Source: Paludibacteraceae bacterium
GTDB lineage: Bacteria > Bacteroidota > Bacteroidia > Bacteroidales > Paludibacteraceae
Reading direction: 5' to 3'
DNA length: 64,000 nt
Assembly (NCBI GenBank): GCA_016285885.1
Contig: JAEERP010000001.1
Location: forward strand, 124,001 to 188,000
Shown: piece after piece, positions 5,265 through 56,415 of the stretch
How the letters are laid out: each line of letters starts with the position of its first letter
How positions within the stretch are numbered: position 1 is the stretch's first letter
Position numbers and translations under genes: made by a program
The notes under the pieces: model-generated
Database searches by the model: none
What the model was told of the DNA's origin: nothing
What the model saw: the letters and a program-made list of their open reading frames with translations, nothing else

Positions 5265-6413
5265 TTATTTCCCGATGATGATAGCTGGCAATTCATTGCG
5301 AGTGCCGTCCAAGTTCACGATAGGGAAGTCTCCCTTGTAGCACCAGTGGCAATTAGCGATGTTGTGCTCCTTGAAGATGCTGCAAATGTCCTTGTACCAA
5401 CGCAAACGAACATCTTTGTCTACGAAGAATGGGTATGCGCCGAACTCTCCGCAGTAGAGCTGTAGTCCGAGCGAGTCCGCCTTGTCGATGGCGAGCTTCA
5501 TGTGCTCGTACATGATCTCTTTGTTGTATTCTCCGTTCATTGAGGCGATCTTTTCCTGCTGTTCCTTCGTGAGGGAGTCCAATGCGAGGGTATCCGTCAC
5601 TTGCATGCCTGGGTAGTTGACTTTCCCCGCATAGAAAGCGTAGTCGGTCCAAGGTGCTTGGTGGTGCGTTACCAAGCTAGGCTCGTAGAAGTGATAGCTC
5701 AACATGATGTACTTGTCGTTTTCAGGCACGCGGAGCGAGTCGAACGTTTGAGGAATTTGCCAACGGTTTGAGCCGAATATGATGGTTCTCTCTTTCTCCG
5801 TCTCTCTGATACCGTTCACCATCTTCTCCACCAATTGGTTCCAAGCCTCGCAAGTAGGTGCTACTGGCTCGTTCATCAACTCGTAGGCTAGGCGGTCGTT
5901 TGGATATTGGCTCAGATCTTTTTGGAGATCTTTCCAGATGTTGACGATCTTCTCCTGCTCCTTAGGGTCTTGGAAGAGGGTGTTCGGATGTCCGTTCTCG
6001 TTGTTGAAGTGGTGGGAACGTACGATGTGGAGGTCTACGACGACGTTCAGGCAGTTGCCCAACGCCCAATTGATGGCATTGTGCATCAAGGCGAATGCGC
6101 TGGAGTCTCTGTTCATGGCCTCATCGTACAATTGCTCCTCGTCTACGGCAAGGCGTATGAAGTCGAAGCCCATGGCGGCGATGGAGTCGAAGTCCGCCTT
6201 CGTGATTTTGTTGGCTCTCACTTCCCCTCTGTCGCCCGACTGGGATAGCCAATGGCTGATGTTCACTCCGTTTTGGAGGTACAGGGTCGCATACGAGCTT
6301 TTTTTAGCCTCGCATATCTTCTCTTCGTTCAAATTTTGTTTTTGCTCTGCTGGTTTGTTGCATGACATGAATGCTAACATTAGTGCAGCGATGCTAAGGA
6401 TACGTGTTTTCAT
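5265..6413 (-). CDS. Glycoside hydrolase family 5 (cellulase-like) lipoprotein
   Basis: 382 aa. Signal with lipobox (LAFMSC, Cys18), so it is predicted to be a surface or periplasmic lipoprotein. The fold is a GH5 (clan GH-A) TIM barrel: GVNISHWLS near residue 49, DFIRLAV near 84, VVVDLHIVRSHH near 124, the acid/base in YELMNEP (Glu182) and the nucleophile in YCGEFGAYP (Glu323). Both catalytic acids are present and the length is normal. Members cleave beta-1,4 glucans, mannans or related polysaccharides; the exact substrate cannot be told from sequence. It stands alone without susC/susD neighbours, so it is not part of a polysaccharide utilisation locus here. Confidence 0.85.
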   Translation of the reverse strand: MKTRILSIAALMLAFMSCNKPAEQKQNLNEEKICEAKKSSYATLYLQNGVNISHWLSQSGDRGEVRANKITKADFDSIAAMGFDFIRLAVDEEQLYDEAMNRDSSAFALMHNAINWALGNCLNVVVDLHIVRSHHFNNENGHPNTLFQDPKEQEKIVNIWKDLQKDLSQYPNDRLAYELMNEPVAPTCEAWNQLVEKMVNGIRETEKERTIIFGSNRWQIPQTFDSLRVPENDKYIMLSYHFYEPSLVTHHQAPWTDYAFYAGKVNYPGMQVTDTLALDSLTKEQQEKIASMNGEYNKEIMYEHMKLAIDKADSLGLQLYCGEFGAYPFFVDKDVRLRWYKDICSIFKEHNIANCHWCYKGDFPIVNLDGTRNELPAIIIGK

Positions 6414-11875: not shown

Positions 11876-14296
11876 TTATGCCCAACGATACAATTGCTTC
11901 TGGAACTCGAAATATTGCTGGCGTATTTGGCTTACGTCCATGTTCAGATTAGACTTCGCATCGTTTATGGTGCCGTATTTCATGTTGATTAATGTTGCTA
12001 AATTATTGGTTGTGAGCTCTCTGTAACTATTCCGTAAATATTGTTCCAAGAGAAAATCGACGAATACTTTCTGGGCGGCGTTTTGCTTCTTGTAATAATC
12101 GTTACGCACCATTTCGACTCGTTTTTCACGCTCCATCGGGGTGGTCTCGTAGGCGATATACTCCAGTACGTCAAGCAGGTCGCAATCCTCACGTCCCATC
12201 ACACGCTGTATGGCCTGTAATTTATCTTCATGGAAACCTTCTTGCTCAAGGTGTTCGAGCAATGCCTGACGTGTGTCAGGGTGTTCCCACTGCTTACGCA
12301 AATCCTCTGGCCCGCTGAAAAATGATGGAAGGCGACCAAAAAGTTCTTGTATCAGTTCTTCTATCGAAATAAGTTTGTCTCCGTACTGGAACTTCTCTGT
12401 CCACTTCGTTCGCAGTTCAATTGTCCGCTTGTTTGAAAGACGAACTGTTATCTTCTTTTTCTGCTTGCCTCCACCATCGCATGTGCAGGGCATGTGTCCG
12501 CAGACGGGACATGGGATGGGAAAGTCGATCAGTGAATCGTCTTTGACAGGCGACACGGATCCCTCGTCTGGTACTGCGTAGGGCTTATGTCTGCCGCATG
12601 TGCATGGATAGTTGCCACATACAGGGCAGAACGGGTCACCGTCCCACTCGGCATCTTGGAAGTTCTTGCTTGCGCCCACAAAGTCGTAGATGGTGAAGTA
12701 GTATTTGTCGTCGAAAAGGCGGGTGCCTCGACCGATGATTTGCTTGAATTCCACCATGTTGTTCACGGGACGCATCAGCACGATGTTGCGCACATTGCGG
12801 GCATCCACGCCTGTGGAGAGCTTCTGCGACGTAGTAAGGATGGTGGGTAACTTCCGCTCGTTGTCTTGGAAGAGTTTCAGGGTCTCTTCACCCTCCGATC
12901 CATCATCGGCGGTGACACGCTCGCAATAATTGGACGCAGGACTCTTCTTATACTGATTGATCATATCACGGATGATGTGTGCATGCAATTGTGTGGCACA
13001 GAAGACAATCGTCTTTTCATCTGGATTTATTTGTGACAACAGCTCCTTTACACGATGTTCGTCTCGTTGGCGAATCTCTATCTTGCCATTATAGAAATCA
13101 CTTTCCGTGTAGGTTTTTTCGGTGTCTATTTCGCCTTCTACCTCATCATCAGAATCGTAAACATACTCATCGATGTTACTTTCCGAAATTCGCACACGGA
13201 ATGGCGTCAGGTAACCGTCTGCAATGCCTTGCTTGAGCGAATAGGAATAGACGGGGTTGCCGAAATACTTATATGTATTGGCGTTGTCTTGACGGCGCGG
13301 CGTGGCGGTCATACCGAGTTGATATGCAAACGAGAAGTAATCCATCAGTTCGCGCCATTGGCTCTCGTCGTTCGCACCGCCGCGATGACATTCGTCTATT
13401 ATGATGAAATCGAAGAAATCTGCCGGATATTGCTTGTAGTACGGCTCACCGCTCTCATCGGCACACATGAAGGTCTGGAAGATGGTAAAATAGAGATGTC
13501 TTGCCGTTGGCACCTTATCATGGTTTTTATGCAGTTCATCGGGTGTGATGCGCACCATGGCATCTTCTGGGAACTGTTCAAAATCGTTGACAGCCTGGTT
13601 GGCGAGTATGTTTCGGTCGGCGATGAAGAGGATACGTGGACGTTGGTCGGTTCCATGCAGGTTCCATTTGGTCTGAAACAGTTTCCAACAGATCTGAAAA
13701 GCCGTGTATGTCTTGCCCGTACCAGTTGCCATGGTGAGTAAAATATGCTTTTGACCGCGAGCAACGGCATTCAGCACGTTGTTAATGGCATTCACCTGAT
13801 AGTATCGTGGCTCACGACCGCTATCACGGTTCATCGGTTGCAAATTGAACTTATCGCGCCATTCGTTATCCTCAGGGAAGGTCATCTGCCACAACTCCTG
13901 CGGGGATGGAAATTTATCTATAAAACCTTCGGTGGAAGGGACAATATATTCACCCTTAGCATCTCTCACACCCATATCTATGAAATAGATGCTATCGCCG
14001 TTGGTGGAATAGGCGTAGCGAATCTGCAACATCTCGGCGTACTGCTTGGCTTGCGGCACACCCACCGACACATCCGTCTCGTCCGACTTAGCTTCCACAA
14101 CGGCCAGTTTTATGCCTTTGTATTCAAGGATGTAATCCACTTTTTTAGGATGGCGGGCTTTTAGCTTCTCCACTCGTCCCGGAGCAATGACATAAGCACG
14201 TTGCTCATTGAGGATTTGGCTGTCGGGCACCTGTTCCCAGCCCACGGAATAAAGGGCTGGATCGATCTTTTTGCGGCGTGTTGTTGATTCGTCCAT
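11876..14296 (-). CDS. hsdR: Type I restriction enzyme R subunit
   Basis: 806 aa. ATP-dependent translocase/endonuclease of a type I restriction system. The N-terminal nuclease has the PD-(D/E)xK pattern (VDYILEYKG ... AVVEAKSDE). The superfamily 2 helicase follows: Walker A TMATGTGKT near residue 196, DECHRGG (motif II), GMTATPRR (motif III) and QIIGRGTRL (motif VI). The C-terminal region resembles the EcoEI R C-terminal domain. Odd feature: two CPVCGxxPCTC motifs between the helicase and C-terminal domain look like zinc-binding pairs. Last gene of the minus-strand hsdM-hsdS-hsdR set, separated from hsdS by a 177-bp repeat-bearing gap. No frameshift seen. Confidence 0.95.
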   Translation of the reverse strand: MDESTTRRKKIDPALYSVGWEQVPDSQILNEQRAYVIAPGRVEKLKARHPKKVDYILEYKGIKLAVVEAKSDETDVSVGVPQAKQYAEMLQIRYAYSTNGDSIYFIDMGVRDAKGEYIVPSTEGFIDKFPSPQELWQMTFPEDNEWRDKFNLQPMNRDSGREPRYYQVNAINNVLNAVARGQKHILLTMATGTGKTYTAFQICWKLFQTKWNLHGTDQRPRILFIADRNILANQAVNDFEQFPEDAMVRITPDELHKNHDKVPTARHLYFTIFQTFMCADESGEPYYKQYPADFFDFIIIDECHRGGANDESQWRELMDYFSFAYQLGMTATPRRQDNANTYKYFGNPVYSYSLKQGIADGYLTPFRVRISESNIDEYVYDSDDEVEGEIDTEKTYTESDFYNGKIEIRQRDEHRVKELLSQINPDEKTIVFCATQLHAHIIRDMINQYKKSPASNYCERVTADDGSEGEETLKLFQDNERKLPTILTTSQKLSTGVDARNVRNIVLMRPVNNMVEFKQIIGRGTRLFDDKYYFTIYDFVGASKNFQDAEWDGDPFCPVCGNYPCTCGRHKPYAVPDEGSVSPVKDDSLIDFPIPCPVCGHMPCTCDGGGKQKKKITVRLSNKRTIELRTKWTEKFQYGDKLISIEELIQELFGRLPSFFSGPEDLRKQWEHPDTRQALLEHLEQEGFHEDKLQAIQRVMGREDCDLLDVLEYIAYETTPMEREKRVEMVRNDYYKKQNAAQKVFVDFLLEQYLRNSYRELTTNNLATLINMKYGTINDAKSNLNMDVSQIRQQYFEFQKQLYRWA

Positions 14297-14354
14297 GGTA
14301 ATTATTTTAATCTATTGATTTACAGAATAATACATTCTTTTTATATAGCTTCCA

Positions 14355-14482
14355 CTACATTTTTATGAGGGAATAATTTCAAAAATCTACACTTTTATGA
14401 GGGAATAAATCGAAAAATCTACACTTTTATGAGGGAATAATTTCAAAAAAACACACTTTTATGAGGGAATAAATCATCCATC
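14355..14482. repeat. Four tandem 32-bp repeats between hsdS and hsdR
   Basis: Units begin at 14355, 14387, 14419 and 14451, each with the core acttttatgagggaataa (first copy has attttt). Copies 1 and 3 share the tail aatttcaaaaa, copies 2 and 4 share aaatc, so a 64-bp pair seems to have been duplicated. The last unit overlaps the hsdS stop codon. The array fills most of the gap before hsdR, where it could bind a protein or act on the transcript. Confidence 0.95.
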
Positions 14483-15670
14483 CTCCTCAAACACCTTTTT
14501 CAGCAACGCCTGTTTCAGGTCGTTGCAGAGGGTTATGGTTTCGGTGTAGTTAGTTTGCAATGCTTTCACATTGGCAGAGAGGGCGTCGAGGCGGTCGGCG
14601 ATGCGTTGCTGCTCGGGAAGTGTCGGAATTGGTAATACTATTGCTTTCAATGATGGTGCATTTGTGTGTACAACTTTCAATTTTGTTTTGCCAAATCCTT
14701 TTTGTGCAATAGCATCGGGGGTTGATAGAGCATAAGCAAGATATTTAGGATTTTGATTGTGTTTCATAACAATAATATCTCCGCCTGCCAAACACTTATT
14801 ATGTCCCAAATATGCAATACTTTTGCCTATATCTTCAACGCTTTCTCCTGTTATAGCAAACAAAATATCTCCGTGTTCAAAGTATTTTTTTGAATTAATA
14901 ATTTGCTCATCTGTATGAGAAACACATTCTTCAAACCAATAATTATATGTAGTGTAAATTTCGCCATAACGAACACAAGGAACACCCTCTAACCTTATTT
15001 GTTCCCGAGTTATTCCCGAACCTCGATACATATCAGTTTGCAAAGAATCAATTGTTTTCATTTTCCATCCTTCTTTCGGTGTCAACAACTCTTTTAGAGC
15101 GGCTTGAAACAAATCTTTGGCGGCTTGCAGTTGCTTTTCGGCATTGGCTTTAAGGGCTTCTATCTTCGCAAACTCGGCATCAAGATAGGAAACAATGCGC
15201 TGCTGGTCGGAAATAGGAGGAACGGGAATTTGAACATTGGAAAGCCAAACTGTACTCAAGTTCAATTGTGCAGCCCCTGAAGCATTTTCTATACACAATT
15301 GCTCAAATGAATTAGAATTTAAATAATGGAACAGAAAAGTTTTTGATAAATTATCGTTCTTCATTCTAATACAAGCAACTCGCTGGTTTAGTGCTGCTGG
15401 CGTAAGTCCTGTTGGCAAAAGTCCCACTCTACCTACATTTCCAGTCAAAGACATTAATAAATCATTCTTTTTAAGAATGTATTTATTCAAATTGCTTTCC
15501 TCAGACAATGGATAGTATTTAGGTGAATTGTCGACTATAATACCTTTTTGTACGTTTGTTATTCTTATAATTCTTATGCCACAATCTACATAGTTGGAAC
15601 TTTTGAATGCAAATCCGTTCAATATCTCGCAAACCTCACCCAACTTCATATATTTCCATCCTTCTTTCAT
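14474..15670 (-). CDS. hsdS: Type I restriction-modification specificity subunit
   Basis: 398 aa. Sets the DNA target of the modification and restriction complexes. Two target-recognition halves are visible. The first starts EGWKYMKLGEVCEIL and ends in the conserved helix PPISDQQRIVSYLDAEFAKI; the second starts PKEGWKMKTIDSL and ends PTLPEQQRIADRLDAL. Full length and intact. Its ATG overlaps the hsdM stop by four bases (ATGA), showing translational coupling. The AT-richer second recognition half is typical of domain exchange. No second hsdS or recombinase lies nearby, so there is no evidence of an inverting hsdS system. Confidence 0.95.
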   Translation of the reverse strand: MKEGWKYMKLGEVCEILNGFAFKSSNYVDCGIRIIRITNVQKGIIVDNSPKYYPLSEESNLNKYILKKNDLLMSLTGNVGRVGLLPTGLTPAALNQRVACIRMKNDNLSKTFLFHYLNSNSFEQLCIENASGAAQLNLSTVWLSNVQIPVPPISDQQRIVSYLDAEFAKIEALKANAEKQLQAAKDLFQAALKELLTPKEGWKMKTIDSLQTDMYRGSGITREQIRLEGVPCVRYGEIYTTYNYWFEECVSHTDEQIINSKKYFEHGDILFAITGESVEDIGKSIAYLGHNKCLAGGDIIVMKHNQNPKYLAYALSTPDAIAQKGFGKTKLKVVHTNAPSLKAIVLPIPTLPEQQRIADRLDALSANVKALQTNYTETITLCNDLKQALLKKVFEEDG

Positions 15671-17118
15671 AGCATCTCCTTTATTTCGTTAATCAATCTT
15701 GCGGAATCGCTGTTGAGGTCGGCGATGGTGCCGAGAATGTCGGCGGCGGTGCGGTTGTCAACAATTTCGGGTTTGTTGGGATTTTTGACAGAAAGGTCGC
15801 AGTCGTCGCCAAGGTCGGCAACATTGAGCGTCCAAGAGTTTTCGCTTTCGGATTTGGTTTTCTGTAATGTTACAAAATCTTCAAGGTCGGCTTCGGTGAG
15901 CGGATTTGTTTTGCCAAGGGTGCGGCTGAGGTTGAGTTGGTAATACCAAATTTTTTGTGTCGGCTCGCCTTTGGAGAAAAACAGCACCACGGTTTTTACG
16001 CCCGCGCCTTGGAAAACTCCTTGCGGAAGGTCGAGAATGGTGTGCAAATTACATTCTTCGAGTAGTTTGCGACGCAGGGATGCGGCATCGCCATTGCTCA
16101 AAAACGTGTTTTTGATTACAATGCCAGCGCGTCCGTTTACTTTGAGCATCTTGATAAAATGCTGCATAAACATATACGCCGTTTCGCTGGTGCGGATGTC
16201 AAAATTTTGAAGCACTTCGGCGCGTTCGCTGCCTCCAAATGGCGGATTGGCAAGGATGATGTCTTTGCGGTCGCGTTGCTGAATGGCGGCGAGGTTTTCG
16301 GTAAGTGTGTTGCCGCGAACGATGTTGGGCGCAGCCACGCCGTGAAAAATCATATTCATTGTGGCAATGATGTAGGGCAATCCCTTTTTCTCCTTGCCAA
16401 AGAATGTTGACTTTTGCAAGGTGTCGGAATCGCTCACCGAATGTACCTGTTCTTGCATATAATTGAACGCCTCGCAGAGGAAGCCCGCCGAGCCGCAAGC
16501 CGGGTCGTAAACGGTTTCGCCAATGCGCGGGTTCACCACTTTGACGATGGTACGGATGAGCGGACGAGGCGTGTAGTATTCGCCACCGTTGCGTCCGGCA
16601 TTGCCCATACGTTTTATTTTGTCTTCATACAGTACGGTCATTTCGTGCTTGTCGTCGGCAGACTGAAAATGCAGCGAATCTATCTTGTTGATAATCTCGC
16701 GCATATTGTATCCGCTGCTCACCTTGTTGCGGAGTTCGCTGAATATCTCGCCAATCTTGTATTCAAGCGTGTCGGGCGACACGGCGGTATCTTTGAAGTG
16801 TTTGAGCGAAGGAAAGAGTTTTTGGTTAACAAATTCCACAAGGTCGTCGCCGGTCATTGCGTTGATAACGTCGAGTTCACCCTTTGCGGTTTTTGGGGCA
16901 GCCCAAGCGTTCCAACGGTTGAAGCCGGTGATAATGCGGCGGTATTCCTTGCCGTTGAGTGCGGCTTCGTCTTCGCGCTCCGTTTCAAGGTCGTCGAGGT
17001 ATTTCAAAAAGAGCAACCACGAAGTCTGCTCTATATAATCGAGTTCGTTGCTGCATCCCGCCTCGTTGCGCAGAATGGCATCGATTGCATTAAAAGTTGA
17101 TTCGTATTTCATCTCCAT
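15667..17118 (-). CDS. hsdM: Type I restriction-modification methyltransferase subunit
   Basis: 483 aa. N6-adenine methyltransferase. The N-terminal HsdM helical domain (residues ~10-150, SWLLFLKYLDDLE) is followed by the catalytic domain with SAM-binding motif DPACGSAGFL (205-214) and catalytic NPPF (291-294). First gene of the hsd set; four-base overlap with hsdS. The region 5' of the start contains a large inverted-repeat structure that would lie in or near its leader. Confidence 0.95.
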   Translation of the reverse strand: MEMKYESTFNAIDAILRNEAGCSNELDYIEQTSWLLFLKYLDDLETEREDEAALNGKEYRRIITGFNRWNAWAAPKTAKGELDVINAMTGDDLVEFVNQKLFPSLKHFKDTAVSPDTLEYKIGEIFSELRNKVSSGYNMREIINKIDSLHFQSADDKHEMTVLYEDKIKRMGNAGRNGGEYYTPRPLIRTIVKVVNPRIGETVYDPACGSAGFLCEAFNYMQEQVHSVSDSDTLQKSTFFGKEKKGLPYIIATMNMIFHGVAAPNIVRGNTLTENLAAIQQRDRKDIILANPPFGGSERAEVLQNFDIRTSETAYMFMQHFIKMLKVNGRAGIVIKNTFLSNGDAASLRRKLLEECNLHTILDLPQGVFQGAGVKTVVLFFSKGEPTQKIWYYQLNLSRTLGKTNPLTEADLEDFVTLQKTKSESENSWTLNVADLGDDCDLSVKNPNKPEIVDNRTAADILGTIADLNSDSARLINEIKEML

Positions 17119-42700: not shown

Positions 42701-42866
42701 AGAGACGATGTGCATATTGTCTCCACCGCCAACGAATATGCATCCATTGTCCGTGCGGATATTGAGGCGGGGTGTTAATTGTCCGCCCTGGAAGGGCATA
42801 TCATTACCTAGCCCAGGGCAACGCCCTGGGAAAAATGTGAGGAGGTTAAATACGCCCTGAAGGGGC
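42701..42866. repeat. ~165-bp direct repeat, left copy (REP-like)
   Basis: Highly similar, in the same orientation, to 45971-46138. Contains the palindromes gcccagggcaacgccctggg and cgccctgaaggggc. The two copies bracket the BspA remnants and the two-gene cassette. The rest of 42472-43300 is gene-free: AT-rich low complexity (cttaattcaaaattcttaat) and two copies of gactacgtcgaactaacgtt. Confidence 0.85.
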
Positions 42867-42956: not shown

Positions 42957-43036
42957 ATTGACTACGTCGAACTAACGTTTCAAAATTCTTAATTCAAAAT
43001 TCTTAATTCTTAATTGACTACGTCGAACTAACGTTT
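42957..43036. repeat. Two copies of gactacgtcgaactaacgtt, inverted at 46157-46180
   Basis: The ~22-base sequence occurs at about 42957-42980 and 43013-43036. A one-mismatch inverted copy (cgctagttcgacgtagtc) lies near 46159, on the far side of the cassette. Confidence 0.7.
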
Positions 43037-43307
43037 CTTAATTATCTTCCATCCCTGGGGTATTTATTAATTGGGTTATGTTGCAAATTAGGTCATTAAT
43101 AAATTATTCCCCCCGAAAGAACGGTATCCCTTTTTTCCAGGATTTCCCTTCCTCATTCTTGTACATAATGTAGATTTCAAGAGGAATTTGTGAAGATCTA
43201 AGTAACAATTGTTTTTCGGGAATTTTGAGTTCTCTCCATGTTGGAATGAGTTTACTACCGATGTCCGTCCCGCCTTCTCTCGTTATGTCGTGATGGGTCA
43301 CGTGCTG

Positions 43308-43575
43308 TCATTCATGATTTTTCACTTGGTCAGAATTGATGACAACGGAATCCGACCCTATATATTTAAGCAGACTTTCCTTCCCCAACTCTGCGTACAT
43401 GAAATCTCTGTCAACAATGGAACCCTTATGCATGGCTTCCCAAAGAGAGCCTGTGCTAATTATCCCATAGTAGATGCTGCCTACATTATAGAACGCATAA
43501 CTCCCTATGAATGTGACAGAATTCAGAATGGTGACGGTTGTCAGTTCGCTACAATCGTGATATTTACAACTTGTT
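43308..43575 (-). pseudogene. Remnant of a BspA-type LRR gene (internal fragment)
   Basis: Not in the ORF track. Minus-strand translation between two stops gives CSELTTVTILNSVTFIGSYA, then SIYYGIISTGSLW, FMYAELGKESLLKYIGSDSV and a stop at VKNHE. This aligns well with the 1793-aa BspA-type protein (VTYIGGSAFYG, IYYGGISSGSPWGA, FSYADEEKENLLKYLGTD). It lacks a start, signal and C-terminus. Together with the start remnant at 45614-45664 it appears to be what is left of a second BspA-type gene. Confidence 0.8.
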
Positions 43576-43798
43576 GTGTATCAGTTAATCTTAATTAAAG
43601 CAGCAAAAAACTGATAATGCTCTGTTGAGCGAATATGGGAAACGTGCAGATATAACGTTTTTAACTATATTTTAATACGGTTTGTTATGTGAATATTGCA
43701 AAAAAATGCTGTTTATAAGGGTATTCTTTGACGGCAGTCCATACACAACATTAGGTTATCTTCACAATTGGTTGTTATCCCATCCTTTTGTGAAATCC

Positions 43799-45130
43799 TT
43801 ACCATGGTAAATCATTTTCAGTCTCATCTTCCGAACCTCCATTTTTTCTAATAAATTTGTATGGTATAGCATTCATGCCAGCAAACGAATCAATGGATTC
43901 AACAGATGGGGTTCGTATATACCTATTATTCAAATCTCGATTAAGATCTAAGGTGTCAATAGCATGAAGTATAACTTCATTGTCTTTTGTAACCGAAAGC
44001 ACATCTTGATACTTGTTAGAGCTCATAAAATTGCGCACTTTTATTGCAATACCATCTTCTATCACCTGAACATGTCTATCTCTCAAAAGTATAACCTTGT
44101 CAAAATATTCTATTACACATCCTTTTGGAATGGTGAACCCCGATATTATTCGTCCAAAGCCATTTATTGTACTATCATTCGTAGCTTGCTTAGTATATTG
44201 GGATAAGGTGAATTCGCCAATTTCGCCTTGCCTATTCCCTTTCAATGTTACCATTACAAGTTTCCCATTCTTCAAATGTACAAATGCGTTAGTTGCACCA
44301 TTGAAACAATATAGTATATCCTCTTTTTTGATACGTGACATTTCAAGCATACTATCCATGCTATGCTGTCTGACGCCAAAGTTACTTATTCTCTTGCCGT
44401 CAGCTCTTTCCCAATACCTTCCGTTTTCATTTTTTACTGTCTCGTACTCATTAGCATAGAAGGAAAAATCTGCCGTATCAGAGTAATTGAAGATATCAAC
44501 TTCTGACCATCCTGTACGTAAAGACCTTTGCTGAATAACATCTCTATCATGAATGAATGTTGGCTTATTGCCATCCATGTCGATAGATTTTGCTATCAAA
44601 CCATCACTATCAGCGGATGCAACAAGTTCTCCGAATTTAGGATTAACGCAGATTATCTTGGACGAGTCAAAACACTTTTCAATTTTTGCGGGATTAAGGT
44701 TATGCCTTGCTGGTCTTAGATTTACTTCATATAAACCTTTACGGCATCCGATAAACATCCTCATGCCATAGATTCTAAAATCTATAGGGAATGATTCGTA
44801 TTCACAAACTGTTGTCATCAAGTCTTCAAAATCTTCCCATTCAAGACGGAACTCTTCATTTGTCAACTGATTCCAATTGCTATATATAGCCTCCTTGACT
44901 CCCGGTATTTTCAGAAATGGTTTTATTTGTTTGCTATAATAGTTTTCATTTCTAAGAAATGCCACTTTTAGCAAGGAAGTTTCACCTTCTATCTTCTTTA
45001 TGGCTTTATTTATAAGCCGTTCATAGGAACCATATACAATTCTTCCATCTTGCAAAACAAAGAAAATATACCCTCCATAAATATAGCAATCAAGGGCTTT
45101 GACTGATATCTTTAGTTGAATAGTTTTCAT
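43799..45130 (-). CDS. Unknown 443-aa protein, second gene of an AT-rich two-gene cassette
   Basis: 443 aa, no signal peptide or membrane segment, so probably cytoplasmic. Recurrent short beta-strand segments with polar turns (IYGGYIFFVLQDGRIVYGSY, IYGMRMFIGCRKGLYEVNL, IEYFDKVILLRDRHVQVIED) suggest a beta-propeller-like fold, but this is only a visual impression. The C-terminus is acidic (GGSEDETENDLPW). Base composition is far more AT-rich than the surrounding surface-protein genes, indicating recent acquisition. Its start overlaps the stop of the 151-aa gene by four bases (ATGA), so the two are translationally coupled. I do not recognise the family. Confidence 0.75.
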   Translation of the reverse strand: MKTIQLKISVKALDCYIYGGYIFFVLQDGRIVYGSYERLINKAIKKIEGETSLLKVAFLRNENYYSKQIKPFLKIPGVKEAIYSNWNQLTNEEFRLEWEDFEDLMTTVCEYESFPIDFRIYGMRMFIGCRKGLYEVNLRPARHNLNPAKIEKCFDSSKIICVNPKFGELVASADSDGLIAKSIDMDGNKPTFIHDRDVIQQRSLRTGWSEVDIFNYSDTADFSFYANEYETVKNENGRYWERADGKRISNFGVRQHSMDSMLEMSRIKKEDILYCFNGATNAFVHLKNGKLVMVTLKGNRQGEIGEFTLSQYTKQATNDSTINGFGRIISGFTIPKGCVIEYFDKVILLRDRHVQVIEDGIAIKVRNFMSSNKYQDVLSVTKDNEVILHAIDTLDLNRDLNNRYIRTPSVESIDSFAGMNAIPYKFIRKNGGSEDETENDLPW

Positions 45131-45582
45131 ATCTTACGAGCTAATAATCTTGTATAGTTAGCAATGCTAATCTTTTCTTTTTCCAAAAACTTATCAACCA
45201 TTTCATCAGTAAGTTTGTATTCATCCTTACTAAAAAATGGATAACCATGCCATGCATCATTGACATTCATTGGTGTTTCAAAAATTGCCAATCGTTCTCC
45301 ATCTTGACCTAATATTTCATTGCAATCGTCCAGAAGAGAGAAGATGCCACTTTGATCAATAAACTCATTTGATTCACCTTCAAGAAAGACATCATATTGT
45401 TGAGACTTGTTGAGTGTCCAATGTGTCTTATCCTCATGCTCAGCCTTTTTAGCTTTACGTCCTTTATTATGTGCTTTCTTCACAGGATTATGATATCCCG
45501 CAGGTTGGTAATATTTGTTTCCTGGCGATGGACCATATTTTTTGCCATCAGCCATCGCATGTTTCTTGTATTCGTATGCCAT
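45127..45582 (-). CDS. Unknown 151-aa protein, first gene of the AT-rich two-gene cassette
   Basis: 151 aa. The N-terminal ~55 residues are strongly basic and low-complexity (HAMADGKKYGPSPGNKYY, KKAHNKGRKAKKAEHEDK), which would suit nucleic-acid or ribosome binding. The rest is acidic and probably globular (FIDQSGIFSLLDDCNEILGQ, AWHGYPFFSKDEYKLTDEMV). No export signal. Coupled to the 443-aa gene by a four-base overlap. Its transcript probably starts at the promoter left over from the broken BspA-type gene, ~190 bases upstream. Family and function unknown; a toxin/immunity or defence pair is possible but not supported by any motif I can name. Confidence 0.7.
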   Translation of the reverse strand: MAYEYKKHAMADGKKYGPSPGNKYYQPAGYHNPVKKAHNKGRKAKKAEHEDKTHWTLNKSQQYDVFLEGESNEFIDQSGIFSLLDDCNEILGQDGERLAIFETPMNVNDAWHGYPFFSKDEYKLTDEMVDKFLEKEKISIANYTRLLARKI

Positions 45583-45613
45583 AGTTTAAAACATTTATTC
45601 GGTCAAATTCTCT

Positions 45614-45664
45614 CTACCTGCAAAAATTCCTATTGAACCATGTAATCGTGAAAAGATGTTTCAT
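45614..45664 (-). pseudogene. Start-codon remnant of a BspA-type gene
   Basis: Reads MKHLFTITWFNRNFCR then stop. The intact 1793-aa gene starts MRHFFTITWFDRKDTV. Homology ends abruptly after about 12 codons, at ~45626, where the AT-rich cassette begins. Confidence 0.8.
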
Positions 45665-45810
45665 ACCATTCGTTTTTTGACAGGCCCTGAGTTTTTTATC
45701 CTTCCCGGCAATCGCAGGAACCCACATGCCCATTGCCGAAATTCGTCCATATATTGAACCGATTCGGCAAATGTATCATTATTTCAATATGATTGCAAAA
45801 ATATGCTGTA
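45626..45810. repeat. ~185-bp duplication of the BspA-type gene promoter region
   Basis: Matches 51623-51812 (promoter, leader and first codons of the 1793-aa gene) with roughly one difference per ten bases, same orientation. Confidence 0.9.
45768..45799 (-). promoter_or_regulatory. Surviving promoter of the broken BspA-type gene, now upstream of the two-gene cassette
   Basis: Minus strand TTTG, a 20-base spacer, TACATTTG: an exact Bacteroidetes promoter, homologous to 51764-51795. Confidence 0.75.
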
Positions 45811-45970
45811 TAAATTTCACCTTACGGGGTAATTGTTGATTGTTGATAATTGTATTTTGGGGTGAAAAGGTTGTCGATTGTGTCGCCCCGATTAAAAGAA
45901 AACTCCTACGGGGTAGGGGATGTGCGTGTTTGGGGCGGATGTTCGTTTCACTATAGAGATGATGTACACA

Positions 45971-46138
45971 AGAGACGATGTACACATTGTCTCCACCGCC
46001 AACGAATTTGCATCCATTGTCCGTGCGGATATTGAGGCGGGGTGTTAATTGTCCGCCCTGAAAGGGCAACACATTATCTAGCCCAGGGCAACGCCCTGGG
46101 GAAATGTCCGGGGTGTTGATATGCGCCCTGAAGGGGCA
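45971..46138. repeat. ~165-bp direct repeat, right copy (REP-like)
   Basis: Second copy of 42701-42866. Carries the gcccagggcaacgccctggg palindrome. Confidence 0.85.
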
Positions 46139-46210
46139 TGATAATTATGAATTATGAAACGCTAGTTCGACGTAGTCAATTATAAATTTTGAATGGCCAT
46201 CCGGTTCAAC

Positions 46211-46279: not shown

Positions 46280-49200
46280 TCATTTGCCCCTACGTACGAT
46301 CACCTTAACCCCGCACACGATGTACACGCCTTCCCGTAGGCCATCCACCGTGGTGAGCCCCTCCGTGTAGGCGACGCTTGCGACCGCCTTGCCGTGTAGG
46401 TCGTAGAGGGTGGCTTTCCTTGCGTGTGCCGAGCGGATGTAAATGGTTCCGTCTACCGCATAGACGGAGATCCCGTCTGGTGTGGCGCGGCGCACGTCTG
46501 GAAGGCTGACCGACGTGTGGGTAGGTTGTAGCTTAGGGTATCCGTCCACCTCGTCGCGCACCCAACGGGCGAAGACGATCTCAGACTGTGCGGCGTTCAT
46601 GGAGTCCACCCAAGCGTTCATGTCCGCCAGGAAGGCATCCGACTTGATGTAGTCCGTCGAGGTTTTGGTCACGCCTTCCCTCTCATTATCATAATTGCAT
46701 ATCACAGAATCTGTGAAACAACGGACACATCGTTCGACTTGGCAGAAAGGACCGGTTTCTTTTTCTTGAGGATATTCATATCTTTTATCCCACGTTATGA
46801 GGGCGGAGGAATAACAGTTCTCTAATTCCGAAGTTCCATGATTATAAGAAGCAATAGCGGCAGCTTGCCATTCGCTTCCCACCACTCCGAGGTTGTAGCA
46901 ATTCATGACTTTTAAGGTCCCTTTCCCATATGCGAGCATTGATGCCGCCCCATAATCGGAATAGCCATACAGTTCCGCTTCACTTCCGCAGTTCAGGATG
47001 GTTGTATTCTCGGCCGAGGCCACAATGGCGGAAACGCAATAACCAGTGATACGGGAATTCTTCACCACGACATTCTGTATGGTGGCATTTTTTGTATTCC
47101 CGAACAATCCTCTATCCCAATGGATGCCTTCTTTATCTGGTGAATCTATGTCATATAAATGCTCGATCGCATGCCCGGCACCATCAAAAACTCCTTCGAA
47201 AGCTATATAATCTTTCCCGTTTTTATTGACTCCGATAGGAATCCAAACGCTATCCTTACACTCTTCGCTGAGGTCGATATCGTTCGCGAGACGTCCGTTG
47301 ATGGCTACTGCTCCTTCGTTCACCACATCGCGGAATTTCGCCAGTTCCGCCCCGTTGTGGATGAGGTAGAAACCATCATCGTCCCGCTCCAGGAAGTTCG
47401 GATCTGTTATTTGCGAAACGGCGACGGTGGTGTCGCTCACGATGTTCTTTCCGTCGAAGTCATTTGAGAAGACATAGGTGCATCCATCGACTGGACAAAC
47501 CGGCAAGTTGATGGTACCATCCAATGAAACCTCTATATTGTTCACTTTCCCCGTAAATCGTACGATATAGCCTTGCGTCGGTTGCAAGTCCACCCCTTCG
47601 AAGCGAGGGAATCCGTCCTCACCCTGCACCCATGGAAGCAATGGAATTGAATCTTTTATTGTCCACCCGTCATATGTCTTCGGATTTTGTGCAACATACT
47701 TGTTCAGCGAATCGGTCACTGATCCGGATAGGAATGCGCTGGAATCCATCTCCTGAACGTTTTCCTCATCATGAAGGTTGATGCCCTCAATCTTTAGGTT
47801 GAAGCAGCTTTTGTATGCCTCATAGATGGAATAGGCTTCCGTAGATATAATAGCTCCTGCATTATAGCAATTCGTTGGATTGCAACAACAATACATTCCG
47901 ACTCCTTTCGCTGTACTTTCGTTGCTGACAATTCTTCCTCTATTGTAACAATTGATAGGTTTTTGAGCATATATTCCATCTGCTGCGTTTTTACCTCCAA
48001 CTACTAATCCATAATTGCTGCAATTAACCAAGGTACTGGCTTTCCCATATAAGTTTAATCCACCTGCGAAATCGGTGCCGATAACAACCCCCTCAAAGTG
48101 ACAATTCACAAGAAGAAGAGGGGAAGTACAGGATGTTATTCCTGCAGCATCAGTTCCTTTCACATAAGCATTCTTTACGGTTAAATTCTCTATATGTCTG
48201 CCGTTTAATAGAGCTATGTAATAGTTTGACCTATTGATGTATAGATTGGTGATGGTATGATTTCCTCCATCGAACATGGCATCACCGAGATTGATAGTTT
48301 CCCAGCTGACAATTTCGCCATTGATGATGCCGCAGACTGGGCTGAGGTCGATGTCGGCGTCAAGTCTTCCGTTCAGGTGGTATCCATTGTGGTTTATATC
48401 CCTATATGTCAAGAGTTCTTGGAGGTTGTGGATGATATAGAAATCTTTGATGATGAGGATGGTGTCAGTTCCCATCAGATAACATACAGTGTCAATACCA
48501 CTAAATGCATCTGTTCCGATTTTGGTAACTGAATTTGGAACAATCAACGATGATAGGCTTGTGCAATTCTTGAATGTTGCAACTCCGATGACGGAGACAG
48601 AGTCCGAGAAGGTAACGGCGGTTATTTTTGTGTTTCCGTAGAATGCGCTGTCACCGATGGTTTTCACTTGCTTAGGAATAACAACAACAGAGTCCATCCC
48701 CGCATATGCGATTAATTTCGTTTTCCCTTCATCCGCGTAGATGAAGTCTCCATCGACAAAACTCCTTTTATGCCGTTTTGCGCCCCATGGACTACCCGTG
48801 GCCGTTCCTGCGTAATAGATCGTCTCAATTCCTGAGAATGTGTTCGCATCAATGGAGGTGACGGAGTTAGGAATGACGACAACAGAAGCAGTGCCTATAT
48901 AAGCGACTAATCTTGTTTTCGCTTCATCCGCATAGACGAAGTCGCCATCGAAAATATCACCTTCGATATGACTTTTTGCGCCCCAAGGACTACCCGTGGC
49001 CGTTCCTGCGTAATAGACAGTCTCAAATCCATTGAAAGTTTTTGTGTCAATGGAGGTGACGGATTTAGAAATGGTAACAGCAGAGTCTGTGCCTATATAA
49101 GCGACTAATTTCGTTTTCGCTTCGTCCGCAAAGACGAAGTCGCCATCGAAAATGTCACCTTTAATGTGCCGTTTTGCGCCCCAAGGACTACCCGTGGCTG

Positions 49201-51661
49201 TTCCTGCGTAATAGACAGTCTCAAATCCATTGAAAGTTTTTGTGTCAATGGAGGTGACTGAGTTGGGAATGATGGCAACAGAATCAGTACCTATATAAGC
49301 GACTAATTTCGTTTTCCCTTCATCCGCATAGACGAGGTCGCCATCGAAAATGTCACCTTTAATGTGCCGTTTTGCGCCCCATGGACTACCCGTGGCCGTT
49401 CCTGTGTAATAGACAGTCTCAAATCCATTGAAAGTGTTCTTGCCGATGTTGTAGATAGAGTCTGGAATGGTGACGACAGAATCGGTGCCTATGTATGCGA
49501 CTAATTTTTTTTGGCCCCGATCCTCATATATGAGGTCACCGTCTCTACTGATCCCTCTATGGTTTGCGCCCCAAGGACTACCTGTGGCGTTTCCTTTGTA
49601 AACGGCGACATTTATGCCATAGAATGCATCTTCGCCGATTTCTGTGACGGAATCTGGGATGAAAATAATAGAGAGTGAACATTCGGAAAATGCGTATCTT
49701 CCTATAGAGGTGACTGAGTCCGGAATTTGCACGGAAGCTATATTCTTGTTGTATCTGAATGCATTTTCGTTGATGGTTTTCACTTGTTTAGGAATGGATA
49801 CGACCTTGTCCTCCCCAATGTAGGCAGCTAAATTTTCTTTATGTTCATCGGAATAGATGAAATCTCCATCGAAATAAGCCTCACGGATGTGTCTTGCCGC
49901 TCCCCATGAGCTTCCTTGGGCAGTTCCATCATATATTATGGTGCTCGCATTACTGAATGCACCTTCTCCTATTGTTGTGACTGAGCTTGGAATTTTAATA
50001 TAAGTCAACCCGGAGCATCCTCTGAATGCGGAGTTGCCAATTGTTGTGACAGAGTTGGGTATAGAGATAGTCTTTAGATTGTAATGCCATGCAAATGCGC
50101 TGAATTGAATATTTTCGACATAGTCAGGAATAATGACAGATGAGTCTGAACCTAAGTAATAAGCCAATATGGTTTTTTCTTTGTTCGCAAAGACAAAATC
50201 ACCATCGAATATACTACCATAGATACGTCTATGTTCTCCCCATTCATGTACATTAGCTGGTCCGTTATAAAAAAGAGTATCTATGCCAGTTAATGCATGG
50301 AATCCAATACTTGTGACACTGCTTGGAATAACGATGGATGACAATCCTCTACATCCATCGAATGCATGGTCCCCGATGGATGTGACAGATTCTGGTATTT
50401 CAACTGATTTTAGTCCAGTACACCCTTCGAATGCGTTGTCGTTGATGTATTTGACAGAATTAGGAATGGTAATGCTCGTTAATCCGACACAACTTCTAAA
50501 GGTGTAATTGTTTATTGTTGTGATGGAGTTGGAAATGGTAACTTCTGTCAGTCCGCTGCAGTTACTGAAAGCATATTCCTCTAATGAGGTGACGGAGTTT
50601 GGTATGTTAATGGATGTCAACCTTTCACAATTAGCGAATGCGTTTTTCCTGATGGTCTTAACGGAGTTGGGAATATTGATGGATGATAATTTTTTACAAT
50701 TAGAGAATGCGTATTCTCCTATGATAGTGACTGAGTTCGGAATGGTGACCGATTTCAGTGTTTCGTTTCCTTGAAATGCGCGGTCTCCAATGATTTTTAC
50801 GTTATTAGGAATGGTTACGGCTGTGTCTGTGCCTAAGTATTTGAGTAAGTTCTCTTTCTCTTCATCAGCATAGGAGAAGTCTCCATACTCGTATGACTTC
50901 CTGATTTTTGCTCCCCATGGACTTCCTGAGGATATTCCTCCGTAATAGATGGTATCTGTACCATAAAAGGCACTACCCCCAATATAGGTGACGGTTTTGG
51001 GAACTACGACAGAGGATAGTTGGCAACCATTGAATGCGGACGTTTCGATGCGAGTAACGGAGTCTGGAATGGTAACTGACGATAATTTGCAGTTGTGAAA
51101 CGCATTACTCTTGATTTCTGTGACAGACTTGGGAATGCTGGCGTCAACCAGTCTTATACAATCTTTAAATGTGTATTCATAAATGATCTTGAGAGAATCG
51201 GGGATGTCGAAGGATGTCAGCAATGAACACTTGGCGAATGCGGTTGGTCCGATGAAGTTGACCGTTTTCGGAATCGTAACGGAAGTCAGATTCGTGCAAC
51301 CTTGAAATGCTTGATAGTTTATGGATTTAACGGAACTTGGAATCACAACGGATTTTATTTCTGTATGATCCATGTATGCCTGGGGATAGATGCTTGTGAC
51401 GTTGTATTCAATTCCTTCATATTCTACTTTTTCGGGTATGACAATCTCTTCCAAATCAATAGAGTTTGAAAATACGGATACGTTTTTTTGAATGGAGTCT
51501 GTCTCGAAATAACGATAGTCTCCAATCGTAAAATACTTATCCGCCATTGTAGGCATAGCCATGAAGCATAGGCATGCCAGCCAGCAGAATAGGTGGCGCA
51601 TTGCCCTCTTTGTAACTGTATCCTTCCTATCGAACCATGTGATCGTGAAAAAATGTCTCAT
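46280..51661 (-). CDS. BspA-type leucine-rich-repeat surface protein with GLUG region and T9SS domain
   Basis: 1793 aa. The start is at 51661 or at 51601, where MRHLFCWLACLCFMAMPTMA begins a clean signal peptide. Residues ~60-1060 are LRR_5/BspA repeats of 23 residues (SVTSIGDHAFDGCRGLSSIV) broken by inserts of the form YYAGTATGSPWGAKRHI plus GDFVYADEAKTKLVAYIGTD. Residues ~1070-1640 contain GLUG-like segments (FDGGNHTITNLYI, GLFGNTKNATIQNVVVKN). The C-terminal ~55 residues (GTIYIRSAHARKATLYDLHG ... LREGVYIVCGVKVI) are a T9SS sorting domain. BspA proteins of oral Bacteroidales bind host matrix proteins and other bacteria; that role is inferred here. Consensus promoter upstream. Confidence 0.9.
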   Translation of the reverse strand: MRHFFTITWFDRKDTVTKRAMRHLFCWLACLCFMAMPTMADKYFTIGDYRYFETDSIQKNVSVFSNSIDLEEIVIPEKVEYEGIEYNVTSIYPQAYMDHTEIKSVVIPSSVKSINYQAFQGCTNLTSVTIPKTVNFIGPTAFAKCSLLTSFDIPDSLKIIYEYTFKDCIRLVDASIPKSVTEIKSNAFHNCKLSSVTIPDSVTRIETSAFNGCQLSSVVVPKTVTYIGGSAFYGTDTIYYGGISSGSPWGAKIRKSYEYGDFSYADEEKENLLKYLGTDTAVTIPNNVKIIGDRAFQGNETLKSVTIPNSVTIIGEYAFSNCKKLSSINIPNSVKTIRKNAFANCERLTSINIPNSVTSLEEYAFSNCSGLTEVTISNSITTINNYTFRSCVGLTSITIPNSVKYINDNAFEGCTGLKSVEIPESVTSIGDHAFDGCRGLSSIVIPSSVTSIGFHALTGIDTLFYNGPANVHEWGEHRRIYGSIFDGDFVFANKEKTILAYYLGSDSSVIIPDYVENIQFSAFAWHYNLKTISIPNSVTTIGNSAFRGCSGLTYIKIPSSVTTIGEGAFSNASTIIYDGTAQGSSWGAARHIREAYFDGDFIYSDEHKENLAAYIGEDKVVSIPKQVKTINENAFRYNKNIASVQIPDSVTSIGRYAFSECSLSIIFIPDSVTEIGEDAFYGINVAVYKGNATGSPWGANHRGISRDGDLIYEDRGQKKLVAYIGTDSVVTIPDSIYNIGKNTFNGFETVYYTGTATGSPWGAKRHIKGDIFDGDLVYADEGKTKLVAYIGTDSVAIIPNSVTSIDTKTFNGFETVYYAGTATGSPWGAKRHIKGDIFDGDFVFADEAKTKLVAYIGTDSAVTISKSVTSIDTKTFNGFETVYYAGTATGSPWGAKSHIEGDIFDGDFVYADEAKTRLVAYIGTASVVVIPNSVTSIDANTFSGIETIYYAGTATGSPWGAKRHKRSFVDGDFIYADEGKTKLIAYAGMDSVVVIPKQVKTIGDSAFYGNTKITAVTFSDSVSVIGVATFKNCTSLSSLIVPNSVTKIGTDAFSGIDTVCYLMGTDTILIIKDFYIIHNLQELLTYRDINHNGYHLNGRLDADIDLSPVCGIINGEIVSWETINLGDAMFDGGNHTITNLYINRSNYYIALLNGRHIENLTVKNAYVKGTDAAGITSCTSPLLLVNCHFEGVVIGTDFAGGLNLYGKASTLVNCSNYGLVVGGKNAADGIYAQKPINCYNRGRIVSNESTAKGVGMYCCCNPTNCYNAGAIISTEAYSIYEAYKSCFNLKIEGINLHDEENVQEMDSSAFLSGSVTDSLNKYVAQNPKTYDGWTIKDSIPLLPWVQGEDGFPRFEGVDLQPTQGYIVRFTGKVNNIEVSLDGTINLPVCPVDGCTYVFSNDFDGKNIVSDTTVAVSQITDPNFLERDDDGFYLIHNGAELAKFRDVVNEGAVAINGRLANDIDLSEECKDSVWIPIGVNKNGKDYIAFEGVFDGAGHAIEHLYDIDSPDKEGIHWDRGLFGNTKNATIQNVVVKNSRITGYCVSAIVASAENTTILNCGSEAELYGYSDYGAASMLAYGKGTLKVMNCYNLGVVGSEWQAAAIASYNHGTSELENCYSSALITWDKRYEYPQEKETGPFCQVERCVRCFTDSVICNYDNEREGVTKTSTDYIKSDAFLADMNAWVDSMNAAQSEIVFARWVRDEVDGYPKLQPTHTSVSLPDVRRATPDGISVYAVDGTIYIRSAHARKATLYDLHGKAVASVAYTEGLTTVDGLREGVYIVCGVKVIVRRGK
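48700..49590. repeat. In-frame 198-bp tandem repeats inside the BspA-type gene
   Basis: The landmark cgcccc(a)aggactacc... recurs at 48781, 48979, 49177 and 49375 (exactly 198 bases apart), then at 49567 (192). Each unit encodes 66 residues with SPWGAK and KLVAYIGTDS. Copies are nearly identical in DNA, so unequal crossing-over could change the repeat number. Confidence 0.9.
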
Positions 51662-51763
51662 ACCATTCGTTTTTTGACAGGCCCTGAATTTTTATCCTTC
51701 TCGGCAACCGCTGGAACCTACATGCCCATTGCCGAAATCCGTCCATATATTGAACCGATTCGG

Positions 51764-51795
51764 CAAATATATCATTATTCCAATATGATTGCAAA
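51764..51795 (-). promoter_or_regulatory. Consensus promoter of the BspA-type gene
   Basis: Minus strand TTTG, a 20-base spacer, TATATTTG. About 100 bases before the start at 51661. Conserved in the duplicate at 45768-45799. Confidence 0.8.
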
Positions 51796-51906
51796 ATATT
51801 GGTGTATAAATTTTATTTTACGGCTTGGTTGTTGATAAATGTGATGGCGTGGGAATTTTGAATGCCCATCCGGTTCAATGTCCGCCTCGTAGGGGCAACA
51901 CATTAT

Positions 51907-52633: not shown

Positions 52634-52893
52634 TATAAATCGTAAATTGTAAATCGTCAAATCGTAAATCTGTTTCGGCCTTTCAGGCCTATAATGCACC
52701 GCTTCCGATTAATTTCCTAACCCAGGGCGTTGCCTTGGGCTATATTTGTTTTGGCCTTTCAGGCCTATGCACAACCTCCCTCAATCATGAATCGCCTGCA
52801 TTTAAATCGTAAATTGTAAATAGTTAAATCGTAAATCAAAAATGGTTCCATCGAACCGCTATTCCCTAATTCAAAATTCAAAATTCAAAATTC
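52634..52893. repeat. ~270-bp intergenic repeat, copy 1 (3' of the 388-aa surface gene)
   Basis: Contains aaatcgtaaattgtaaat-like tracts, two ggcctttcaggcctat palindromes, cccagggcgttgccttggg and ggttccatcgaaccg. Copies lie at 54396-54664 and 56131-56415. No gene in it. Confidence 0.85.
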
Positions 52894-54060: not shown

Positions 54061-54260
54061 ATATTCAATTGTTGATTATACAAATATAATTTTTTTTGCG
54101 ATAAAAATTAATGGGGGGCATGTGAATTAAGAATTAAGAATTAAGAATTTTGAATTTTGAATGGCCATCCGGTTTATTGTTCGTTCGGTTCAATGTCCGC
54201 CCTGAAAGGGCACAACATTATCTAGCCCAGGGCAACGCCCTGGGGAAATGGCCCGGGGGT
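54061..54260. repeat. Upstream repeat of the 388-aa gene, with shared promoter
   Basis: Nearly identical to 55796-55990. On the minus strand it carries TATATTTG (54088-54081) preceded by TTTTATCGCAAAAAAAAT, then low-complexity aattaagaattttgaatt and the gcccagggcaacgccctggg palindrome. It shows that the gene plus flanks was duplicated as a block. Confidence 0.9.
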
Positions 54261-54395: not shown

Positions 54396-54664
54396 ATTTA
54401 AATCGTAAATCGTAAATTGTCAAATCGTAAATTTGTTAAGGCCTTTCAGGCCTATAATGCACCGTATCCGATGAATTTCCTAACCCAGGGCGATGCCCCG
54501 GGCTATATCTGTTAAGGCCTTTCAGGCCTATGCGAACAATCCTCCTCAATCATGAATCGCGTGCATCTAAATAGTAAATTGTAAATCGTCAAATCGTAAA
54601 TCAAAATTGGTTCCATCGAACCGCTATTCCTAATCCTTAATTCTTAACTCATAATTCTTAATTC
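54396..54664. repeat. ~270-bp intergenic repeat, copy 2 (3' of the 376-aa surface gene)
   Basis: Second copy of 52634-52893, with the ggcctttcaggcctat palindrome twice. Confidence 0.85.
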
Positions 54665-55795: not shown

Positions 55796-55990
55796 ATATT
55801 CAATTGTTGATTATACAAATATAATTTTTTTTGCGATAAAAATTAATGGGGGGCATGTGAATTAAGAATTAAGAATTAAGAATTTTGAATTTTGAATGGC
55901 CATCCGGTTTATTGTTCGTCCGGTTCAATGTCCGCCCTGAAAGGGCACAACATTATCTAGCCCAGGGCAACGCCCTGGGGAAATGGTTGG
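55796..55990. repeat. Upstream repeat of the 376-aa gene, with shared promoter
   Basis: Near-identical copy of 54061-54260, including TATATTTG at 55823-55816 on the minus strand. Confidence 0.9.
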
Positions 55991-56130: not shown

Positions 56131-56415
56131 ATCATGAATTGCGTGCATCTAAATAGTAAATTGTAAATTGTCAAATCGTAAATCTGTTAAGGCCTTTCAG
56201 GCCTATAATGCACCGCTTCCGATTAATTTCCTAACCCAGGGCGATGCCCCGGGCTATATCTGTTAAGGCCTTTCAGGCCTATGCGAACAATCCTCCTCAA
56301 TCATGAATCGCGTGCATCTAAATAGTAAATTGTAAATCGTCAAATCGTAAATCAAAATTGGTTCCATCGAACCGCCATTCCTAATCCTTAATTCTTAACT
56401 CATAATTCTTAATTC
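56131..56415. repeat. ~270-bp intergenic repeat, copy 3 (3' of the 463-aa surface gene)
   Basis: Third copy of 52634-52893 and closest to 54396-54664. Confidence 0.85.

Follow-up and report, generated by a model that had tools for sequence, protein, structure and literature searches.

Two-gene defence modules, e.g. Kiwa, Olokun and Aditi, belong to the described systems that come closest to the gene pair analysed here, which was found in a window of 64 kb (the whole stretch of DNA under study). The pair resembles these modules in its adjacent, coupled genes, its patchy distribution and its occurrence in defence islands and on plasmids, but its proteins match no PADLOC model (neither protein gave a match at E≤1 against PADLOC-DB 2.0.0) and the pair is thus placed outside every system modelled there in 2023. 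With the BspA-type LRR surface genes the locus shares a leader and promoter that are a near-copy of those of the neighbouring BspA gene, whereas the cargo is an unrelated foreign gene pair and not a surface protein. Vassallo et al. 2022 (PMC9519451) described a defence protein composed of a seven-bladed propeller with an N-terminal Mrr-family nuclease. Compared by description, the likeness would consist in a propeller within a small anti-phage system and in an activity-bearing partner part; in contrast, the partner in the window is encoded upstream by a gene of its own, carries an HGYP motif and gave no nuclease match. The main interest of the locus lies in a widespread, unrecognised defence-associated gene pair rather than in the BspA fusion: the pair is conserved in three phyla, under selection and unseen by every family library tried, the genes around it point to a role in phage or plasmid immunity, and a pair this small can easily be tested directly. 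In addition, the locus appears to show an incoming gene pair placed behind a ready-made surface-gene promoter (see the table for coordinates).

Table. Features of the gene pair and its BspA-type surroundings in the window (coordinates are those of the whole stretch)
Feature	Position	Strand	Evidence
Gene 1, small protein, 151 aa	45127..45582	-	ORF listing, 11-homologue alignment, Ka/Ks
Gene 2, 443 aa, probable beta-propeller	43799..45130	-	ORF listing, alignment, low-confidence model, Ka/Ks
ATGA stop/start overlap, 4 nt, coupling both genes	45127..45130	-	ORF coordinates
Native 3' flank of the cassette, common to L005 and L006, ending ~AGTTG(T/C)AAATA	43575..43798	-	alignments
Internal BspA-type fragment, ~82 codons, then stop	~43320..43562	-	alignment
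Left junction, BspA leader end/cassette homology start	45606..45627	-	alignments
Copy of the neighbouring BspA gene's promoter and leader	45627..45840	-	local alignment to 51624-51836
Bacteroidota-type promoter TTTG-N20-TACATTTG	45768..45799	-	pattern search
Intact BspA-type gene, 1793 aa, source family of leader and fragment	46280..51661	-	LRR_5 E=1.9e-149
TAGCCCAGGGCAACGCCCTGG repeat copies	42806-42829, 46076-46099, 52722-52745, 54220-54243, 54485-54508, 55955-55978, 56236-56259		

An AT-rich pair of 151 and 443 aa with a four-base overlap had been claimed by an earlier, sequence-only reading of the window; the ORFs, the ATGA overlap and the GC content (0.36 for gene 1 and 0.35 for gene 2 versus 0.49 across the window) agree with this description. 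The Ka/Ks ratios between the window and its close relatives L005 and L006 range from 0.12 to 0.18 for the small and from 0.155 to 0.169 for the large gene (0.08-0.25 in the L005-L006 and L007-L008 comparisons), and both genes are therefore maintained as proteins by purifying selection. The further claim that no recognised family is present was also borne out: Pfam, NCBIfam, PHROGs, PADLOC and the PDB sequences gave no match for either protein, and the profiles of both proteins retrieved no credible match in the PDB sequence search. LRR_5 (Pfam) matches neither of them, the resemblance to BspA being limited to the flanking fragment in the alignment, and a signal peptide is not apparent from either sequence. 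In the literature searched (mainly open-access, without bioRxiv preprints), neither the HGYP protein family nor the pair has been described. These findings support the view of a foreign, self-contained and undescribed cassette.

The recommended look for homologous pairs in other contexts revealed the same pair in eleven other loci, including plasmids and defence-gene neighbourhoods (duplicates merged: L026/L028 correspond to locus L008, L017 to locus L007); these belong to Bacteroidota, to plasmids of Rhizobiaceae, to a Ruminococcus plasmid and to an Acinetobacter plasmid. The small gene precedes the large gene in all eleven of them, with an overlap of either 4 nt (as in the window; L005-L008, L023, L024, L027) or 13 nt (L010, L014, L021, L022). 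Four relatives, L005-L008, each with the small-then-large pair and the ATGA overlap, came from the collection scan: L005 and L006, from Bacteroidales/Prevotellaceae MAGs, show ~90% identity, L007 (Paludibacter sp.) and L008 36-37%. L010/L012 and L014/L030 were found by profile sampling of phylum and order, and L027/L029 were added by the class sample. The window protein as query gave no match to plasmids; those of Sinorhizobium, Agrobacterium, Ruminococcus albus and Acinetobacter lwoffii were reached by way of the protein of the distant relative L010. Three of 287 genomes in the class samples carried the small protein and three of 375 the propeller; since both profiles matched exactly the same three genomes, no orphan of either protein was seen in these samples. 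The pair is rare and patchy (~1% or less of the sampled genomes): the search of the families of two carriers did not yield a second carrier, the large protein was found in none of 15 genus relatives searched, and the viral contigs and phage records searched contained no relatives of the pair. Judged from these sequence comparisons, the module is genuine, mobile and kept by purifying selection. As candidate distant relatives, L011, L015 and L016 (short matches within ORFs of at least 831 aa) and L018-L020 (with ORFs resembling Skp/OmpH in L018 and L020) were rejected as chance matches.

At six to seven of the eleven loci, clearly more often than in random stretches, genes of restriction-modification, Druantia, nSTAND3-Mrr or Fic type occur within ~8 kb of the pair. 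In L022 the pair adjoins Druantia DruE2 (E=0) and Vsr; Vsr is also near it in L012, together with a cytosine methylase and an MvaI/BcnI nuclease. An HsdR-type gene is located 62 nt 3' of it in L030, and type III-like genes for restriction and modification (from reading and the pooled scan) were detected in L029. L006 contains a PDC-S73 protein (nSTAND3 plus Mrr_cat) and L005 a SoFic-like Fic protein, each along with SLFN_AlbA_2, and L021 has annotated DUF1998 and DEAD/DEAH helicase genes. At E≤1e-30, 75 PADLOC families were matched in 79 flank ORFs versus 10 (mostly housekeeping look-alikes) in 92 control ORFs, figures that count models and not independent systems, with pooled matches unassigned to loci, and that overstate the independent evidence because one methylase or helicase matches many PADLOC models. 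The control consisted of eleven random stretches from four Bacteroidota genomes, unmatched to the plasmid loci, with one 3664-aa ORF left out. As models were counted and matches pooled, the enrichment of the pair beside known defence genes is a rough one, obtained against a small, incompletely matched control. Against a defence function speak the four of the eleven loci (L007, L008, L023, L024) without a recognised defence system beside the pair, and likewise the window itself, in which the defence genes seen closest to the pair, namely a type I restriction-modification set named from sequence reading only, are ~27 kb away.

Several details of these surroundings were recorded. The type I genes of the window (11876-17118) comprise an R-like (806 aa), an S-like (398 aa) and an M-like gene (483 aa). 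A closely similar SLFN_AlbA_2 plus HTH protein is encoded upstream of the pair in L005 (5972-7387) and L006 (5693-7165), the outer flanks of which differ; it is possibly an optional member or a regulator of the pair. Directly upstream of the pair in the restriction cluster of L030, a 154-aa protein (5316-5780) has no Pfam match and appears nuclease-like by eye.

In the alignment of the 11 small-protein homologues, the residues that never vary include a Tyr and a His in the N-terminal part, a Trp and the motif HGYP; the two invariant histidines (in the window protein H31 and, within HGYP, H112) are compatible with an active site. The AlphaFold model of this protein was of unusably low quality (pLDDT 32.7). 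All 11 sequences of the large protein have the motif RxxxxSxxY close to the C-terminus. The AlphaFold model of the large protein, calculated from five sequences, is of low confidence (pLDDT 43.5, pTM 0.46), and the PDB fold matches of this model were mostly beta-propellers (COMPASS WD40, BamB, Nup159, Hir2, RCC1, clathrin terminal domain; best E 3.7e-4 with a TM of just 0.36), with many RCC1-type propellers also among its viral-model fold matches. No Pfam propeller exceeded the cut-off (CNH E=0.16), the profile self-comparison for blade repeats was not significant, and none of the 11 propellers matched a PADLOC model. According to the fold matches, the large protein is probably a beta-propeller.

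With regard to the BspA context, a ~185-bp copy of the promoter, the leader and the first 12 codons of the BspA gene had been claimed upstream of the pair. The copy is real and extends over 214 bp (214 alignment columns with one gap, ~88-89% identity to the leader of the neighbouring gene), and the genome-wide search detected these two copies only; the presumed 12 codons, however, may be leader and not coding sequence, because the signal peptide begins at the second Met of the BspA gene (MRHLFCWLACLCF...) and the copied stretch stands 5' of this likely signal-peptide Met. The promoter claimed within the copy was recovered ~190-217 nt 5' of the start codon of the 151-aa gene, with a counterpart (TATATTTG) before the neighbouring BspA gene; the full TTTG-20 pattern occurs just four times on both strands of the 64 kb. 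Given this promoter in the leader copy, and as the 400 nt upstream of the pair in L005 and L006 do not contain the pattern TTTG-20-TACATTTG, capture of the BspA promoter is the simplest reading, and transcription of the pair from it is predicted. In L005 and L006, an AlbA_2 gene ends 161 and 383 nt, respectively, upstream of the pair, so that co-transcription with the pair is possible in these loci. The left breakpoint falls, as had been claimed, at the end of the BspA homology: the latter reaches to 45627, and the cassette homology starts from 45625 (L005) or 45606 (L006). Part of the native 5' flank of the cassette has been retained, and from the leader ATG an ORF of 16 codons runs to a stop at the junction.

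On the opposite side, the cassette ends with an AT-rich 3' flank of ~224 nt. The internal BspA fragment that had been proposed for 43308-43575 is present in decayed form: ~82 residues align with residues 209-289 of the 1793-aa BspA protein (BLOSUM62 score 167, the two other frames scoring 24-31). The fragment and the neighbouring BspA gene are of one subfamily, and a near-identical second copy was not found in the genome. In L006, the right end of the cassette (AGTTGCAAATA) is likewise adjoined by an LRR repeat of BspA type, the codon phase being that of the window (CKY-xx-CS.LT), and beyond the first repeat the BspA genes of both loci do not look orthologous; in L005, unrelated DNA follows the same right end (positions of this transition: window 43550-43600, L006 9570-9700, L005 9540-9570). 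The repeat in L006 weakens the interpretation of the window fragment as the other half of the leader-donor gene; the right-hand piece may therefore not be half of a resident gene, i.e. it does not necessarily derive from the same gene as the leader, and may stem from a preferred junction or have been brought along by the cassette. Either the cassette landed twice at equivalent places of BspA repeats, with these as its possible recurrent landing site, or it carried a BspA piece that was later overwritten. From the claim that a cassette landed in a resident surface gene, the foreign cassette, the occurrence of the pair elsewhere without a BspA leader and the visible promoter capture are retained, while, in view of L006, the two BspA pieces are not established as the halves of one gene. 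The same reading had named pairs without BspA remnants as an argument against the landing; since a BspA gene was not seen beside the pair in ten of the eleven other loci (L006 has one 3' of it), the BspA context is secondary, and the landing is not refuted.

The arrangement alone, irrespective of the function of the pair, might also be the product of chance recombination, with the BspA leader and the fragment stemming from different genes and the pair being transcribed from its own upstream region or silent. The non-orthologous BspA repeat at the same right junction in L006, the partial conservation of the native 5' flank, and the 16-codon ORF and ~190 nt of untranslated RNA that the leader puts before the gene would be in line with such an origin, but the leader copy is intact and has a full promoter match, L005 and L006 are without such a promoter of their own, and the fragment falls into the subfamily of the neighbouring BspA gene; a chance arrangement is thus regarded as rather doubtful.

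From the features that are given by the sequence itself (the pair with its linkage, selection and scattered occurrence, the copied leader, the match to the promoter, and neighbourhoods rich in defence genes), we infer, with slightly more confidence than doubt, an undescribed two-protein defence module that has come under a captured BspA promoter. The small HGYP protein and the translationally coupled propeller would work as a single complex in protecting the cell from phages or other foreign DNA; in the presumed division of labour, the propeller would be the recognition or scaffold part that recognises a foreign or stress-related partner, and the HGYP protein the effector or adaptor that either acts itself or provides the link to the target. 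The module would here have been inserted into the BspA surface-gene array and would now most probably be transcribed from the captured promoter and leader. To be set against this reading is that the pair has no homology to any known defence protein and that the propeller fold depends on a model with a pLDDT of 43.5. A more far-reaching version, in which the pair constitutes a new immune family of at least three phyla, with a propeller sensor controlling a small effector of a new enzyme fold around H31 and H112, and may land repeatedly in the BspA LRR repeats of Bacteroidales, is considered unlikely to hold.

The main functional rival is a toxin-antitoxin or addiction module, in which one protein would be toxic and neutralised by its coupled partner, and addiction, not the stopping of phages, would keep the pair on its plasmids and islands. 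The tight coupling of two genes, their presence on plasmids and in mobile or defence regions and the patchy distribution are as expected for such a module, and two members of the small family weakly match the SocA/Panacea antitoxin (E=0.016); this match is, however, far below threshold and confined to two of the 11 members, no toxin or antitoxin domain exceeded the Pfam/NCBIfam cut-offs, and neither protein resembles a known toxin or antitoxin. A propeller of ~400 aa would be unusual as a toxin as well as an antitoxin, and an addiction function is judged improbable. Far less credit is given to a housekeeping or envelope pair, e.g. a chaperone or assembly factor for BspA-like surface proteins, for which the BspA context would be functional: although the locus is part of a large array of BspA type, the pair is followed by a BspA gene in L006 as well and BamB is among the fold matches of the propeller, a signal peptide is apparent in neither protein, ten of the eleven other loci, in unrelated phyla and on plasmids, have no BspA gene in sight, the large protein is missing from the 15 genus relatives searched, and the BamB resemblance is common to many unrelated propellers.

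The surroundings in the window contain further repeats. A 45-nt inverted repeat (87%) with TTGACTACGTCGAACTARCGTTTC brackets the whole locus (42999-43043 and 46150-46194), and a third copy of its core is located at 42958-42981. The search for an RNA element in the leader (Rfam) gave as its sole match a sub-threshold Acido-Lenti-1 outside the cassette: at 46054-46100, a copy of the intergenic hairpin-like repeat TAGCCCAGGGCAACGCCCTGG resembles this family with 26.2 bits, below the cut-off of 37. Seven copies of this repeat are situated between surface-type genes. The array of surface-type proteins spans 31750-57807 and comprises, besides the LRR_5 BspA gene, cysteine-containing repeats of 26 aa (LTxAPELPATxLxxxCYxxMFxGC) with a period of 78 nt.
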